From: Bacteroidota bacterium
GTDB taxonomy: Bacteria; Bacteroidota; Bacteroidia; Bacteroidales; CAIXZF01
Reading direction: 5' to 3'
Length of the DNA: 64,000 nucleotides
NCBI GenBank assembly: GCA_022709385.1
Contig: JAKLIX010000002.1
Coordinates: 108,535 to 172,534 of the forward strand
Made by a program: the position numbers and the translations under genes. Below are positions 39,984 to 60,481 of the stretch, piece by piece. How positions within the stretch are numbered: position 1 is the first letter of the stretch; each line of letters opens with the position of its first letter. Under the pieces are notes generated by a model. The model made no database searches. It was not told where the DNA came from and worked only from the letters and a program-made list of their open reading frames with translations.

Positions 39984-39991
39984 TACATTTG
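39984..39991 (+). promoter_or_regulatory. Probable -7 box of the dsrC-dsrMK-like operon
   Basis: TACATTTG matches TAnnTTTG and ends 19 bases before the ATG at 40011. The only nearby TTTG (39954-39957) is 26 bases upstream, longer than the usual 19-21, so regulation by an activator is possible. The rest of the gap 39720-40010 shows a CCACCGGTGG palindrome but no gene. Confidence 0.45.
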
Positions 39992-40010: not shown

Positions 40011-40250
40011 ATGGCAGAGAACATCTGTACCAATCTGAGGACTTGTCCCCTGGTTAACAAACCCCTCCTTCCGGAAGAGCCGGAAAGAAGGGAAGTTTAT
40101 CTTCAAACCTACTGTTTTCCCGCCAACAACAAATATCTTGAATGCCGCAGGTACATTTTTAAGTTGAAATACGGCTTTTGTCCCGATTTCCTGATGCCTG
40201 ACTCAGTGATGTGCGAGGATGAGGTACTGGACCGCTATGAGGAGATGTAA
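40011..40250 (+). CDS. Small cysteine-rich protein, unknown
   Basis: The 79-residue cytosolic protein has six cysteines (6, 12, 35, 45, 57, 68) and no other recognisable domain. The segment YCFPANNKYLECRRY (34-48) has the YC-x9-C-RY pattern that recurs in small redox- or metal-linked Bacteroidota proteins, so a metal or Fe-S site is possible. It is the first gene of the DsrC-DsrMK-like-cysteine desulfurase run, 59 bases upstream of dsrC. Its position suggests a sulfur- or electron-handling part of that module. I cannot name a family with confidence. Confidence 0.7.
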   Translation: MAENICTNLRTCPLVNKPLLPEEPERREVYLQTYCFPANNKYLECRRYIFKLKYGFCPDFLMPDSVMCEDEVLDRYEEM

Positions 40251-40309
40251 GCTCAAAGAAACCAATAACTTATACTACTAATTAGGCGATACTCACAAAC
40301 ACGAACCAC

Positions 40310-40627
40310 ATGGCACAAATTGAAATTGAAGGACATGTTTTTGAAGTGGACGGAGATGGATTTCTGACAGATCCATCGCTTTGGAACGACGAGGTGGCCA
40401 GGCTGATTGCAAAGTTTGACGGCATTGAGGAGATGAACGACAAGCACTGGGCAATCGTCAGGCTCATCCGCAGCAATTTTGAAGAGAAAGGCATGGCTCC
40501 GATGATCCGGACGATATGTCAACATACCGGATTGAAGCTCAGAGAGATATATGAGTTATTCCCACTTGGTCCGGCCAGGGGGGCCTGCCGGGTAGCCGGA
40601 CTTCCCAAACCCGACGGTTGTGTTTAA
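40310..40627 (+). CDS. dsrC: DsrC/TusE-family sulfur carrier with both redox cysteines
   Basis: The 105-residue protein starts MAQIEIEGHVFEVDGDGFL and ends with the flexible arm. Both conserved cysteines are present: C93 (GACRVAG) and the penultimate C104 (DGCV), ten residues apart between them. This is the arrangement of true DsrC, which carries sulfur as an intramolecular trisulfide, rather than of TusE, which keeps only the last cysteine. In sulfite reducers, DsrC trisulfide made by DsrAB is reduced by the DsrMKJOP membrane complex. Here DsrM-like and DsrK-like genes follow at once, but no dsrAB is in view. Confidence 0.93.
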   Translation: MAQIEIEGHVFEVDGDGFLTDPSLWNDEVARLIAKFDGIEEMNDKHWAIVRLIRSNFEEKGMAPMIRTICQHTGLKLREIYELFPLGPARGACRVAGLPKPDGCV

Positions 40628-40638
40628 GCCATAATCCG

Positions 40639-41277
40639 ATGCATTGGTATCACTGGGTATCACTGGCCTGCCTTTGTGCAGGCATGGCGGGACTGGCTTA
40701 TCAACTGTTGCGGATTGTACGTTCCGGTTTACCGGCAGACCACAGCCAGGCAGCCGGCAAGCAAAGACCGGCCATCCGCTATGCCATGACCGGGGCGATG
40801 AATCCCGTAAAAAAGGAATCTGCCTTCCGGCACTGGCCGACCTATATTGCAGGGGTTGTTTATCATCTGGGCACCTTTCTGGCCATTGGACTGTATTTCA
40901 TTATCCTCGCGGGTATTGAAACAGGGCGGGTTGCCGCATTCGTGCTGGCCGGGGCATTGTTGTTGTCATCACTTGCAGGCTTTGGTATCCTGTTAAAAAG
41001 GATGATCAAACCGGCCTTACGACACCTCAGCATAGCCGACGATTACATTTCAAATCTTCTGGTCAGCCTGTTCCAGCTATGCACCGGCCTGATGCTTGCC
41101 GGAGCAGGGATAGAATTCATTTATTACATGATTGTCAGTATCTTATGTGTATATTTACCTTTGGGAAAGCTGCGTCACTGTATCCTGTTTTTCGCCGCCC
41201 GTTATCATCTGGCGCGGTTTTACGGGCATCGCGGGGTTTGGCCTCCCAGATCGGCTGCAATGACAGGCAATGATTGA
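40639..41277 (+). CDS. DsrM/NarI-like membrane cytochrome b subunit
   Basis: From ATG 40639 the protein has 212 residues; an upstream TTG (40618) inside dsrC is less likely. It has about five membrane helices and histidines placed for heme b (YHLGTFLAIG, and LRHCILFF ahead of the final basic segment ARYHLARFYGHRGVWPP). That C-terminal pattern is typical of DsrM/HmeC and NarI-type quinol-oxidising cytochromes. It would pass electrons between the quinone pool and the DsrK-like protein, whose gene it overlaps by 8 bases. No DsrJ, DsrO or DsrP genes are adjacent, so this is a minimal MK-type complex. Confidence 0.82.
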   Translation: MHWYHWVSLACLCAGMAGLAYQLLRIVRSGLPADHSQAAGKQRPAIRYAMTGAMNPVKKESAFRHWPTYIAGVVYHLGTFLAIGLYFIILAGIETGRVAAFVLAGALLLSSLAGFGILLKRMIKPALRHLSIADDYISNLLVSLFQLCTGLMLAGAGIEFIYYMIVSILCVYLPLGKLRHCILFFAARYHLARFYGHRGVWPPRSAAMTGND

Positions 41278-42568
41278 GATTTCAGAAAAACAGAAGGACA
41301 GGATGCTGCAAGTGCTGGCATCGAAACTCGACAGCCACCTGCTGACCAGTCTGAACGCATGCGTACGTTGCGGACTTTGTGCAGAAAGTTGTGTTTATTA
41401 CCAGGCAAGCGGTGATGAGCGGATGATCCCGGCCAGGAAGGTTGAACTGCTGGGTTCCATCTACAAATACTATTATCGTCCACAGGCCAGGCTGCTGCCG
41501 GTCATCAGCGGAGCAAGGGCAATCAACGGCAGGACTGTCACCGAGATGATAGACCTGTTCTTTGGTGCCTGCACCGGCTGCGGCCGTTGTGAACCACATT
41601 GCTCCATCGGTGTTGCCATTGCCCATGTCAATGCCGTAGGAAGGGCCATGCTCTCAGAAGCCGGGCTTACGCCTGCCAGCCTGCAGTCCACGGTGAATGC
41701 AGCTCTCGAAACCGGGAACAACATGGCCATCCCCACGGATGAGTTTGTGGATACCATACGCTGGATGGAGGAAGAAATGCAGGATGAGATCAGCGACACC
41801 AGGGCCAGGATACCACTCGACGAAACTGATGTGAATGTCCTCTACACCCTGAATCCGAGGGAACCGAAATTCTTTCCCCTGTCCATCTCGGCCATGGCGA
41901 AAGTCTTTTATGCCGCAGGGGAGTCCTGGACGTTGTCCACCCGCATGTATGATGTCACCAATTATGCATTTTTCTCTAATCATGCTGCTGAAAGCCGGCT
42001 GATTGCGGAAAGACTCAGAGATGAAGTGTTCCACCTGCGTGCCAAAACCCTCGTCCTTGCCGAATGCGGACACGGTTCGAGGGCTTTCCGCTGGGAAGCG
42101 CCCAATTATCTCGGGCATGCACTGCCATTCGAAACCCTGACATCGGTCGAACTCATCCACCGCTACATCACACAAAAAAGGATCAGGCTCGACGGTAAAC
42201 GGCTGAAAGAAAGGATCACCCTGCATGATCCCTGCAACCTGGTGCGGTCGGGCGGCATTATTCAGGAACAAAGAGACATCATCCACCGCATCGCCGAAGA
42301 CTTCGAGGAGATGACGCCGCACGGTGCCGATAACCTTTGCTGCGGCGGAGGCGGTGGCCAGCTCGCCATGAGCGAATACAACGAAAGGAGGTTGAAGATC
42401 GGTGAATTGAAAGCAGATCAGATCCGCAAGACCGGGGCATCCATCGTCATTACTCCCTGTCATAACTGTGTCGACCAGCTTTCACAACTGAATTTCACCT
42501 ACAAGTTGGGAGTTCGTATCATGACCCTGGCCGAGTTGGTGGCGGATGCCCTGATATTTGACCAATAA
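41270..42568 (+). CDS. DsrK/HdrD-like Fe-S protein with non-cubane cluster site
   Basis: The 432-residue protein has two ferredoxin-type motifs, CVRCGLCAESC (31-41) and CTGCGRCEPHC (101-111). CCG domains follow: a first with LAECGHGSRAF, and a second reading C-x34-CC-x38-CxxC (DPCNLVRSGG ... NLCCGGGGGQ ... TPCHNC). Such CCG sites hold the non-cubane 4Fe-4S cluster that cleaves heterodisulfides in HdrB/HdrD and is proposed to reduce the DsrC trisulfide in DsrK. The start overlaps the membrane subunit gene by 8 bases and dsrC lies just upstream. A DsrC-disulfide:quinone oxidoreductase is therefore the most natural reading. Glycolate-oxidase-type GlpC/LldE homology is the alternative. Confidence 0.88.
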   Translation: MIEISEKQKDRMLQVLASKLDSHLLTSLNACVRCGLCAESCVYYQASGDERMIPARKVELLGSIYKYYYRPQARLLPVISGARAINGRTVTEMIDLFFGACTGCGRCEPHCSIGVAIAHVNAVGRAMLSEAGLTPASLQSTVNAALETGNNMAIPTDEFVDTIRWMEEEMQDEISDTRARIPLDETDVNVLYTLNPREPKFFPLSISAMAKVFYAAGESWTLSTRMYDVTNYAFFSNHAAESRLIAERLRDEVFHLRAKTLVLAECGHGSRAFRWEAPNYLGHALPFETLTSVELIHRYITQKRIRLDGKRLKERITLHDPCNLVRSGGIIQEQRDIIHRIAEDFEEMTPHGADNLCCGGGGGQLAMSEYNERRLKIGELKADQIRKTGASIVITPCHNCVDQLSQLNFTYKLGVRIMTLAELVADALIFDQ

Positions 42569-42589
42569 AAAACGCTAAAACAACAGATT

Positions 42590-43789
42590 ATGAGTGAGAT
42601 GATCTATCTCGACAATTCAGCCACCACCTTTCCGAAGCCGGAAGAGGTTTATACTTATATGGACAGTTTTTACCGCAAACACGGGGTGAATCCCGGACGA
42701 TCGGGCTTTGATGCAGCCATTGAGACAGAGGAAGTAGTCTTCAACACCAGGAAAATGCTTGCGGATCTTTTCAACGGCGACGGTGATGTGAACAGGCTTA
42801 CCTTCAGTTACAATGCCAGCGACTCCCTGAACATGATCATCCAGGGGCTCAGCAGGAGGGGAGATCATGTGATCACCACCATGCTGGAGCACAACTCAGT
42901 GCTCAGGCCGTTGTATCACCTCTCAAGTGAAGGCCATATCGAGGTCGACCATATCCCTTTCGACAAGGCCGGTTATGTGGATCCCGGCGATATCCGCAAG
43001 GCCATCCGGAAAAATACCAGGATGGTGGTGGTCAATCACTGTTCCAATGTGATCGGCACCATACAGCCCGTATCCGAGATCGGCAGGATATGCAAGGAAC
43101 AGGGTGTTTACCTGGTGGTAGACGGCAGCCAGAGTGCCGGAGCCGTTCCGGTGGACATGCGCACGATGGACATCGACGTCTTTGTTTTCACCGGTCATAA
43201 ATGCCTGATGGGTCCTACCGGCATTGGTGGTTCCTATGTCATGGAGGATGTACCTGTCCGCTATACCCGTTTCGGAGGCACCGGGGTTCGTTCGGCTCAA
43301 CAGACTCATCTTGAGGAATTTCCTTACCGCCTGGAATGCGGTACCCTGAACCTGGTAGGCGTGGCCGGACTGAATGCAGGCGTTCGCTGGATCAATGAAC
43401 ATGGTATTGAGAACCTGCACCACAAGGAAATGGACCTGTGGGACAAACTCAGGGCAGGCCTGAGCAAAATTGAAGGAGTGGTGATCTATTGCTGTGAAAG
43501 CAGGCAAAACCACAATCCCGTGATCAGTTTCAATATCACCGGCATGGATTCGGGCGATGTGGGCACGATCCTGGATGTGGATTACAACATCGCCTGCCGC
43601 ACGGGCCTGCAGTGTGCTCCAAAGGTACATGAAGGAATCGGGACAGATAAAATACACGGAACGGTAAGGTTGAGTATCGGTCCGTTCAATACCCCGGAAC
43701 ACATCGATGCCGCCATTGAGGCCGTGTCTGAAATTGCAGAAATAGCCAGGAAAACACCAGCTCCTAAAATGCAGGTGGCTGGTTTGTAG
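42590..43789 (+). CDS. Class V aminotransferase, cysteine desulfurase family
   Basis: The 399-residue PLP enzyme begins [16 protein letters not shown]. Active-site residues are H101 (EHNSV), D178 and Q181 (DGSQSAGA), and Schiff-base K204 (TGHKCLMGP). The flexible cysteine loop [14 protein letters not shown] has C336 and C342. It resembles SufS/CsdA-like cysteine desulfurases of the stand-alone family that take sulfur from cysteine as a persulfide. It starts 21 bases after the DsrK-like gene and is the last gene of the run, so it could supply sulfur to DsrC or to the cysteine-rich protein. No SufE/SufU or scaffold gene is adjacent. Confidence 0.88.
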
Positions 43790-43800
43790 TCCCCCTATAT

Positions 43801-43905
43801 CCTCATTCTCATTCTCATTCTCATTCTCATTCTCATTCTGATTCTCACTCTCATACTCCTTCTCATCCTCATTCTCATCCTCATTCCCATCCTCATTCTC
43901 ACTCC
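43801..43905. repeat. Degenerate TCATTC hexamer repeat
   Basis: About 105 bases of TCATTC-type hexamers are nearly perfect at the 5' end and decay into TCATCC/TCACTC variants. They fill the gap after the cysteine desulfurase gene. The remainder of the gap up to 44015 holds nothing I recognise. Confidence 0.9.
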
Positions 43906-44015: not shown

Positions 44016-44381
44016 ATGTTCGACTTCCAGAACCTCGAAGTTTACAAAAAGGCTAAGGCATTTCATGTTTTATGCAGGGAGTTTCTTTCCACTCACAGGC
44101 AGGAAGCGTATATTAAAGATCAGTTAAGCCGTGCTTCCTTCAGTATTCCATTAAATATTGCCGAGGGATCGGGAAAGTTTTCAAAAGCGGACCGCAGGAA
44201 ATATTTTGTAACAGCAAGAGGCTCCGTATTCGAGTGTATTGCCATCATCGACATCCTCGCCGGTTTTGGAAAAGTTACAGAAGAGGAACTTGAAATATTA
44301 ACAAGAACAGCAGATGAACTGTCCAGGATGCTTTATACAATGATCAGAAACCTTACTGACAGGAAACAAAGCGAAGTTTGA
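44016..44381 (+). CDS. Four-helix-bundle protein (23S rRNA IVS / Avd-like family)
   Basis: The 121-residue protein starts FDFQNLEVYKKAKAF and contains QLSRASFSIPLNIAEGSGK, the signatures of the TIGR02436-type four-helix-bundle family first noticed as ORFs in 23S rRNA intervening sequences. The family is common as single genes in Bacteroidota and is structurally related to Avd of diversity-generating retroelements. No reverse transcriptase, template repeat or rRNA is nearby. The function is unknown. A 25-bp tandem repeat follows directly. Confidence 0.9.
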   Translation: MFDFQNLEVYKKAKAFHVLCREFLSTHRQEAYIKDQLSRASFSIPLNIAEGSGKFSKADRRKYFVTARGSVFECIAIIDILAGFGKVTEEELEILTRTADELSRMLYTMIRNLTDRKQSEV

Positions 44382-44420
44382 TGCACAGCAGGTCCTGCCT
44401 TATCCGACAGCGGAAGTATC

Positions 44421-44665
44421 AGGACACAGAGCGGAGAATCAGAAACAGGAACAGAGCGGAGAATGAGAAACGGACACAGAGCGGAGAATCAGAAACAGGA
44501 ACAGAGCGGAGAATGAGAAACGGACACAGAGCGGAGAATCAGAAACAGGAACAGAGCGGAGGATCAGAAACGGACACAGAGCGGAGAATGAGAAACAGAA
44601 ACAGAGCGGAGGATCAGAAACGGACACAGAGCGGAGAATGAGAAACAGGAACAGAGCGGAGAATC
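44421..44665. repeat. 25-bp tandem repeat array (about ten units)
   Basis: About ten head-to-tail copies of a 25-bp unit (core CAGAGCGGAGAATCAGAAAC) occur with two alternating variants (AATCAG..AGGAA and AATGAG..GGACA). It spans from near the end of the four-helix-bundle gene to the stop of the convergent hydrolase gene. An open frame through it (44378-44641) only reflects a repeat without stops and is not called a gene. Confidence 0.93.
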
Positions 44666-59314: not shown

Positions 59315-60481
59315 ATGAAAGAACATTTTACCCTCGATCCCGGCATTTACTTTCTCAATCACGGCTCTTTCGGCGCCTGTCCGGCTTCCATTCAGTCCCG
59401 GCAACAGGAATACAGAAATATGCTTGAAAAAGAACCGGTCCGTTTTATGATCCGGGATCTGGAAGAGATGATCGTGCAGGTCAAAGCCGCACTGGCCGCT
59501 TTTCTGGGAACCGATGCCGGCAGTCTTGTCCTCTTGCCCAATGTGACACATGGGGTGAACACGGTGCTGAAATCAATCCCATGGAAGCCCGGCGACGAGA
59601 TTGTAACGACCAATCATATTTACGGTGCCTGCCGCGTACTGCTGCAGTACCTGTCGGCCAGCGCCGGTATTACATTCAGGGAGGCCAGGGTGCCTTTTCC
59701 TCTGAAAGAAAAAGCACAAATAACTGAAAGCATCCTCGCTGAGTTCACACCCCGTACGCGCCTGGTCTTCGTTGACCACGTAACTTCCCCCACGGCGCTG
59801 ATCTTTCCGGTGGATGAGATCGTTGAAGAATGTAACAGACGCGGGATCGACTGCCTGGTAGACGGAGCCCACGCTCCCGGCGCCCTGCCGCTGAACCTGG
59901 ACAGTCTCGGGGCATCATGGTATACAGGCAATTGCCACAAATGGATGGGTGTGCCGAAAAGCGCAGCTTTCCTTTATGCCAGACCCGACCGCCGTGATAT
60001 CCTGCAGCCCCTTGCCCACAGTCATTTTTCCTCCCCGGACCGCTCATTTGCAGCGCGTTTCCACTGGGCCGGCACGCTTGATCCGACTCCGGCACTGTGT
60101 ATTCCGGATGCCATCCGTTGGGGAGCATCGCTGCCTGAGGGAGGCTGGGAAGCCATCCGGCATCACAACCACTCACTCGCATGCACAGCCCGGAAAATAA
60201 TCTGCGAACAACTTGGCATACCCCTGCCCTGTCCGGACACTATGCTCACCTCCATGGCTGCCATCCCGGTCGGATTCACGGAAAAAATCGTCAGTTCCGG
60301 TCTACACAGCTTCGACACCCTGCAGGAAACACTGTTCCGTGAGTATCATATCGAAATTCCTGTCTATCCCTGGCATGAAAAGGGAATCCGCATCCTGAGG
60401 CTTTCTGCACAAATCTATAATGATCTTTCTCAATATGAATACCTTGCCCGCATCCTTAAAAAAGTGCTTACACGTATTTAG
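59315..60481 (+). CDS. Class V aminotransferase, isopenicillin-N-epimerase-like
   Basis: The 388-residue PLP enzyme has FLNHGSFGACP at the N-terminus, the cofactor-binding DGAHAPGALPL (D183, H186) and Schiff-base K209 in GNCHKWMGVPK. These are the signatures of the isopenicillin N epimerase / CefD-like branch, which includes epimerases, lyases and desulfurases. It is 8 bases downstream of DUF711 and 33 bases upstream of an exporter gene followed by an NRPS. An amino acid epimerase or tailoring enzyme for the peptide is an attractive but unproven idea. Confidence 0.87.
   Translation: MKEHFTLDPGIYFLNHGSFGACPASIQSRQQEYRNMLEKEPVRFMIRDLEEMIVQVKAALAAFLGTDAGSLVLLPNVTHGVNTVLKSIPWKPGDEIVTTNHIYGACRVLLQYLSASAGITFREARVPFPLKEKAQITESILAEFTPRTRLVFVDHVTSPTALIFPVDEIVEECNRRGIDCLVDGAHAPGALPLNLDSLGASWYTGNCHKWMGVPKSAAFLYARPDRRDILQPLAHSHFSSPDRSFAARFHWAGTLDPTPALCIPDAIRWGASLPEGGWEAIRHHNHSLACTARKIICEQLGIPLPCPDTMLTSMAAIPVGFTEKIVSSGLHSFDTLQETLFREYHIEIPVYPWHEKGIRILRLSAQIYNDLSQYEYLARILKKVLTRI

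Follow-up and report, generated by a model that had tools for sequence, protein, structure and literature searches.

What would a DsrC protein with two redox cysteines do in a bacterium that has no sulfite reductase? The question is raised by a stretch of 64,000 nucleotides from a Bacteroidota bacterium of the order Bacteroidales (contig JAKLIX010000002.1, positions 108,535 to 172,534 of the forward strand; this whole stretch is called the window below), in which five plus-strand genes lie head to tail at 40011-43789 and encode a small Cys-rich protein, DsrC, a cytochrome b-type membrane subunit (M), an iron-sulfur subunit with a CCG motif (K) and a cysteine desulfurase. The second redox cysteine of DsrC has been described as limited, save for cases in Methylococcaceae, Marinobacter and Lawsonia, to organisms that have DsrAB (Stockdreher et al. 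2012, PMC3397948), and the module described here is a large further exception to this rule, found across a Bacteroidales clade. The genes dsrC-M-K-desulfurase form a conserved unit and not a chance arrangement, and, judging from the sequences, we see about even chances that this operon encodes a quinone-linked thiol/disulfide circuit of DsrC with its own sulfur donor.

The first-pass annotation of this DNA described the locus as one without DsrAB and named, as one of two dangers to its view, a dsrAB elsewhere in the genome with this locus as its ordinary partner. As a test for sulfite reductases we used PF01077, the siroheme domain carried by DsrAB, AsrC and CysI, which matched nowhere in the host genome, whose completeness is 97%; 11 of 14 control genomes gave a match in this search. 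A dsrAB elsewhere in the host was therefore rejected, and the feared partner did not turn up. Of 50 other genomes with the module, 49 lack the domain as well, among them the complete Bacteroidales genome L002 and Butyricimonas L046 and L066, so neither the host nor these 49 relatives have the siroheme reductase that would place them in the Dsr pathway of sulfite reduction or sulfur oxidation. The lone match among the 50, in the metagenome-assembled genome (MAG) L004 (G347 C24:883-1374, 71 bits), may be genuine or may stem from misbinning.

When bacterial and archaeal genomes were scanned with DsrC as the query, 80 loci came up, nearly all labelled Bacteroidales or Bacteroidetes, where the taxonomy is MAG-based and the few loci labelled Ignavibacteria or Alphaproteobacteria may be misbinned. 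The order dsrC-M-K-desulfurase was present in all 66 of these loci with enough 3' DNA, over a span of 3.2-3.7 kb. To avoid the bias of the DsrC seed, 295 sampled genomes of the same taxonomic order as the host were searched independently with the K protein, which was found in 31 of them (22 of 183 genera), and 18 of the 20 K-seeded loci that were fetched have the complete four-gene order. Genes outside these four recur in at most 14 related loci, the small Cys-rich protein excepted, and from the recurrence and order of neighbours the core is therefore dsrC, M, K and desulfurase. The annotation had proposed a survey of a five-gene order; its last four genes are kept, but the Cys-rich protein before dsrC, although present at this locus, is not a constant part, as a motif search places it 5' of dsrC in about half of the loci (37 of 79). 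No multihaem cytochromes, other Hmc/Tmc subunits or DsrJ, DsrO or DsrP were found among the recurrent neighbours of related loci, the whole genome not having been searched for the last three. Relatives of K in a plasmid collection came to one distant match (29.7%). Among single loci, L138 (4043-6390) has dsrC-M-K without an adjoining desulfurase, on the same strand as and shortly upstream of sufB-sufC-sufD, L139 (4010-5299) has a K-like protein without DsrC or M nearby, and in L063 (8966-9976) the match to K is split in two and covers less in total, so that the gene looks broken or truncated in that MAG.

The DsrC of the module belongs to the TusE/DsrC/DsvC family, as it passes the curated cut-offs of both profiles (PF04358, 2.7e-33 and 115.1 bits versus 24.9; TIGR03342, 96 bits versus 53.5) and its penultimate Cys104 is invariant; in the PDB it matches the DsrC of 2xsj (1.3e-29) and 2v4j (4.4e-28). 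The redox cysteines had been placed correctly at Cys93 and Cys104, and the protein is of the dissimilatory two-cysteine type, with Cys93 standing 11 residues before the penultimate Cys104. Cys70, Cys93 and Cys104 are all present in 70 of 70 aligned module proteins, whose C-terminal arm is almost unchanged. The tree, built from the module proteins, four sequences from the PDB and 30 other DsrC of the phylum or of the module loci themselves, agrees with this grouping: the module proteins are one group (100/94) within a clade of Desulfovibrio and Chlorobi dissimilatory DsrC (99/97), although, with an alignment of 105 columns and a number of long branches, the deep placement is moderate evidence and the cysteine pattern is direct. 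All 25 DsrC of the phylum that belong neither to Chlorobi nor to the module have one C-terminal cysteine only, as in TusE. Other DsrC of the phylum were considered as module members and rejected, since the 20 fetched loci have no M or K and a one-cysteine DsrC.

The next question is what could act on this DsrC. The genes of the cytochrome b and CCG proteins do overlap by 8 bases, as annotated (41270-41277). K carries the ferredoxin cysteines C31, C34, C37, C41 and C101, C104, C107, C111 and a CCG motif of the form CX34CCX38CXXC (C322, C357-C358, C397, C400), and across related loci the eight ferredoxin cysteines are 99-100% conserved and the CCG cysteines 96-97%. PF02754 fits at 2.4e-12, and over the full length K reaches 286.5 bits against HmcF, 265.5 against TmcB and 227.6 against DsrK. 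These values lie under the equivalog cut-offs (400 for DsrK, NF045796; 750 and 735 for HmcF and TmcB), and K belongs to the HmcF-TmcB-DsrK superfamily as a whole, with a full-length match, conserved motifs and 24 of 24 members tested matching all three profiles. The label DsrM/DsrK-like therefore holds for the shared architecture but not for the closer kinship, as K resembles HmcF and TmcB more than DsrK, whose cut-off it does not reach. By sequence, M and K together fall into the HmcEF/TmcBC/DsrMK group, with K HmcF-like rather than a DsrK, a relationship based for K on profile scores. TfrB, LdhH, GlpC and GlcF gave 45-68 bits with K, and a lactate, glycolate or glycerol-phosphate oxidase was rejected because LdhH (64.9 bits), GlpC (55.5) and GlcF (45.2) match partially, against 227-287 bits at full length for HmcF/TmcB/DsrK; the suspicion that M and K might group with lactate/glycolate oxidase subunits was thus not borne out. 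K also finds EtfD by sequence.

M has no Pfam family and matches HmcE weakly (4e-7, below cut-off), with HmcE scoring above DsrM and the DsrM cut-off failed. Its predicted model is a five-helix protein (predicted local distance difference test, pLDDT, 87) for which NarI entries are the top eight PDB matches (Z 11.0, root-mean-square deviation 5.8 over 161), under the caution level for helical bundles; EtfD follows with Z 9.8. In NarI four histidines ligate two haems. The candidate ligands of M are conserved to different degrees (His76 in 77/77, His180 in 76/77, His65 in 67/77, His190 in 63/77); since the first two are near-invariant and the other two present in most sequences, one predicted haem is well supported and a second is probable.

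The desulfurase fits PF00266 (1.5e-86) and aligns over its full length with SufS-type PDB enzymes (to 6.6e-60), with the active-site cysteine aligned. It belongs to TIGR01977 (431.7 bits versus a cut-off of 377, active-site Cys342 present) and not to the selenocysteine lyase SclA (316.1 bits versus 525), and Cys342 is 99% conserved across related loci. In the host genome there is no TusA and no DsrE2, and because of this the adjoining desulfurase is the obvious candidate for the sulfur donor. A TusE relay is likewise not in evidence in the host, with no TusA and a single weak match to the DsrE family PF02635, the TusB-type family not having been searched. The host has a separate SufD-SufS-SufE-SufT locus (SufD, SufE and SufT were named by eye from the sequence), therefore the module desulfurase is not the sole one for Fe-S assembly. 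A second, different class-V aminotransferase-like gene stands in the window at about 59345-60226 (host C12:167879-168760).

To hypothesize, the desulfurase would convert L-cysteine to alanine, hold the sulfur as a Cys342 persulfide and hand it to Cys104 of DsrC; Cys93 would then attack the Cys104 persulfide by ordinary thiol chemistry, giving H2S and a Cys93-Cys104 disulfide, which the CCG cluster of K would reduce with electrons from menaquinol passing through the haem(s) of M. In sum, cysteine and menaquinol (MQH2) would yield alanine, H2S and menaquinone (MQ), and reducing equivalents would be disposed of into cysteine sulfur. DsrK-type subunits are known to reduce DsrC (PMC8076601), and the DsrC of A. 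vinosum is persulfurated at its penultimate cysteine after incubation with IscS and cysteine, or with sulfide alone (PMC3397948). The annotation had the complex reducing a DsrC trisulfide or disulfide; the trisulfide step is unnecessary, as a desulfurase persulfide on reduced DsrC should give disulfide and H2S directly, because a trisulfide would call for sulfur of a higher oxidation state or for a separate oxidation, and DsrAB, which is known to consume it, is absent. The earlier interpretation of the locus is partly supported. The sulfur transfer, quinol as the donor, the direction and the release of H2S are what we infer from the module, and the direction could be reversed. A bolder claim, for which we would put the chances clearly short of even, is that this may be an undescribed anaerobic respiration or electron sink of Bacteroidales, including gut Butyricimonas, in which a DsrC fed with cysteine sulfur by a dedicated desulfurase frees H2S and an HmcEF-like complex re-reduces it from menaquinol, without a sulfite reductase.

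Several observations weigh against this proposal. Among the 20 K-seeded loci, one is C-M-K without a desulfurase and one is K alone; K resembles HmcF more than it does DsrK, the type of subunit said to reduce DsrC; of the four candidate haem ligands of M, His65 and His190 are not invariant; the substrate of the TIGR01977 family is unproven, and the family is related to the selenocysteine lyase SclA; and some extended clusters contain a sulfide:quinone oxidoreductase (SQR), which leaves room for an oxidative role there.

These extended clusters carry the best surviving alternative, an oxidative direction or a redox buffer, in which DsrC thiols would be oxidised and menaquinone reduced, with sulfane sulfur coming from sulfide (through SQR, TusA and DsrE2) or from the desulfurase. 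In seven to nine loci (e.g., L016, L028, L036, L038, L059, L061 and L077) the four core genes are joined by DsrE2, TusA, FlpD (MvhD), HdrA2 and another class-V aminotransferase, and some of these loci also have an SQR of type III, a DUF1641 protein and a one-cysteine DsrC. They tie the core to sulfane-sulfur traffic and electron transfer, and suggest, by their TusA and DsrE2, that other persulfide sources can feed the same DsrC. The oxidative reading can also draw on the DsrMK(JOP) of sulfur oxidisers, which oxidises persulfidated DsrC to the trisulfide (PMC13293266). However, a trisulfide would need DsrAB, which is absent here, the host has neither TusA nor DsrE2, and most loci consist of the four genes only, so that we consider this direction unlikely, if worth keeping in mind.

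It seems improbable that the module is a biosynthetic sulfur relay (tRNA thiolation, Fe-S or cofactor sulfur) in which the desulfurase would load DsrC as IscS does TusE and M/K would keep it reduced. The desulfurase does adjoin a TusE-family protein, the Tus relay runs from IscS to TusE (PMC3397948), and C-M-K lies near sufBCD in the one locus L138; but the second cysteine is invariant here and missing both from TusE-type proteins and from the 25 other non-Chlorobi DsrC of the phylum, there is no TusA in the host, the SUF locus is separate, and the patchy presence in the taxonomic order is ill-suited to a housekeeping role. We think similarly little of an electron-transfer module of the Hmc/Tmc kind that serves a physiological partner other than DsrC, with DsrC and the desulfurase co-transcribed for other reasons: it agrees with the ranking of profile scores, HmcF over TmcB over DsrK for K and HmcE over DsrM for M, but in every one of the 66 testable loci dsrC stands ahead of M, and this DsrC is of the two-cysteine type that needs a reductase.

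A selenium version, in which the desulfurase would be a selenocysteine lyase and the circuit would handle selenium, is very improbable, because even with TIGR01977 and SclA as the closest NCBIfam models and a host selD beside a SelU-like protein, the SclA score falls below its cut-off, selD lies on a different contig (C1), and the core is accompanied in the extended loci by sulfur carriers, not by selenium genes. The selD gene stands outside the window (host C1:302292-303212), next to the gene of the SelU-like protein (tRNA 2-selenouridine synthase), which makes a selenium trait of the host probable.

The coordinates of the operon and its surroundings are collected in Table 1. The start of M was taken as the ATG at 40639, the TTG at 40618 of the open reading frame (ORF) list being less likely. 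The promoter call TACATTTG is based on TAnnTTTG, the Bacteroidetes -7 consensus; this consensus has 10 matches on the plus strand of the whole window, and no good -33 box accompanies the one in question. Upstream lies a minus-strand gene for a 694-aa membrane protein and downstream a 121-aa ORF followed by a minus-strand ORF, none of them recurrent beside related loci. Short simple repeats (TCATTC-like runs) stand at 43800-43900, just 3' of the desulfurase, and a repetitive ORF at 44378-44641.

Table 1. Features of the dsrC-M-K-desulfurase locus (positions of the window).
Feature	Position	Strand	Size	Remarks
-7 promoter match TACATTTG	39984..39991	+		about 20 bases 5' of the first gene; weak evidence
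Small Cys-rich protein	40011..40250	+	79 aa	first in cluster; no named family
Two-cysteine DsrC	40310..40627	+	105 aa	Cys93 and Cys104 in C-terminal ...GACRVAGLPKPDGCV
Putative NarI-type cytochrome b (M subunit)	40639..41277	+	212 aa	5 predicted transmembrane helices
CCG iron-sulfur protein (K subunit)	41270..42568	+		two 4Fe-4S ferredoxin motifs and one CCG motif
Cysteine desulfurase family protein	42590..43789	+	399 aa	Cys342 in RTGLQCA, Lys204 in TGHK

The small Cys-rich protein has cysteines at 6, 12, 35, 45, 57 and 68, the first five 100% conserved in 33 sequences. Its sequence falls in no family of Pfam or NCBIfam and has no significant counterpart in the PDB, and its model, confident and helical, has no significant match in PDB or BFVD. 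The unnamed Bacteroidota family to which it belongs (L140-L154) occurs in 55 of the 295 genomes; in the loci checked, the best-scoring copies (86-120 bits) directly precede dsrC, and the others stand alone. Of the latter, some are beside CheA/CheB-like and response-regulator genes (L152) or a chemoreceptor-like gene (L151), and others adjoin peroxiredoxin/thioredoxin genes (L145, L146). As a guess, the protein could have a metal-binding or redox-sensing role.

The carriers of the module are many gut and sediment Bacteroidales. If the proposed circuit is true, they would turn cysteine into H2S independently of sulfite and in connection with the quinone pool, which would matter for gut H2S made by organisms that dsrAB/asr surveys miss as sulfidogens, and dsrC or DsrMK-like genes should then not be taken as markers of sulfite reduction. 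The module would also offer a small and genetically simple system for the question of the role of DsrC outside sulfite metabolism.

No description of a dsrC-M-K-desulfurase operon was found in the literature searched, with mention in reviews being possible, and each of its parts resembles a known system. DsrMK without JOP is known (PMC10504309), and the minimal reductive pathway DsrABCMK shares with the module the two-cysteine DsrC, the haem cytochrome b and the CCG Fe-S subunit, but the module goes without DsrAB or another siroheme reductase, includes a desulfurase in the operon, and its K and M are under the DsrK and DsrM cut-offs. By profile, M and K match HmcEF/TmcBC of Desulfovibrio best, yet the module differs in the linked DsrC and desulfurase, in scores far under the equivalog cut-offs and in having no recurrent multihaem cytochrome neighbours. 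In the IscS-TusABCDE relay, as possibly here, sulfur of a cysteine desulfurase reaches a TusE/DsrC-family protein, but the module has an invariant second redox cysteine, a predicted quinone-type membrane partner and no TusA in its host. The desulfurase is like the TIGR01977/SclA family in its TIGR01977 score and active-site cysteine, and unlike SclA in its score under that cut-off and its genomic partner, DsrC-M-K. EtfD-type membrane reductases (PDB 9ojn) match both the putatively NarI-like membrane part and the CCG/ferredoxin part, but in EtfD these are fused into a single protein that partners an ETF, whereas the module has two subunits with DsrC. We therefore regard the module as a widespread, conserved and apparently undescribed operon in which known parts stand in a new combination.

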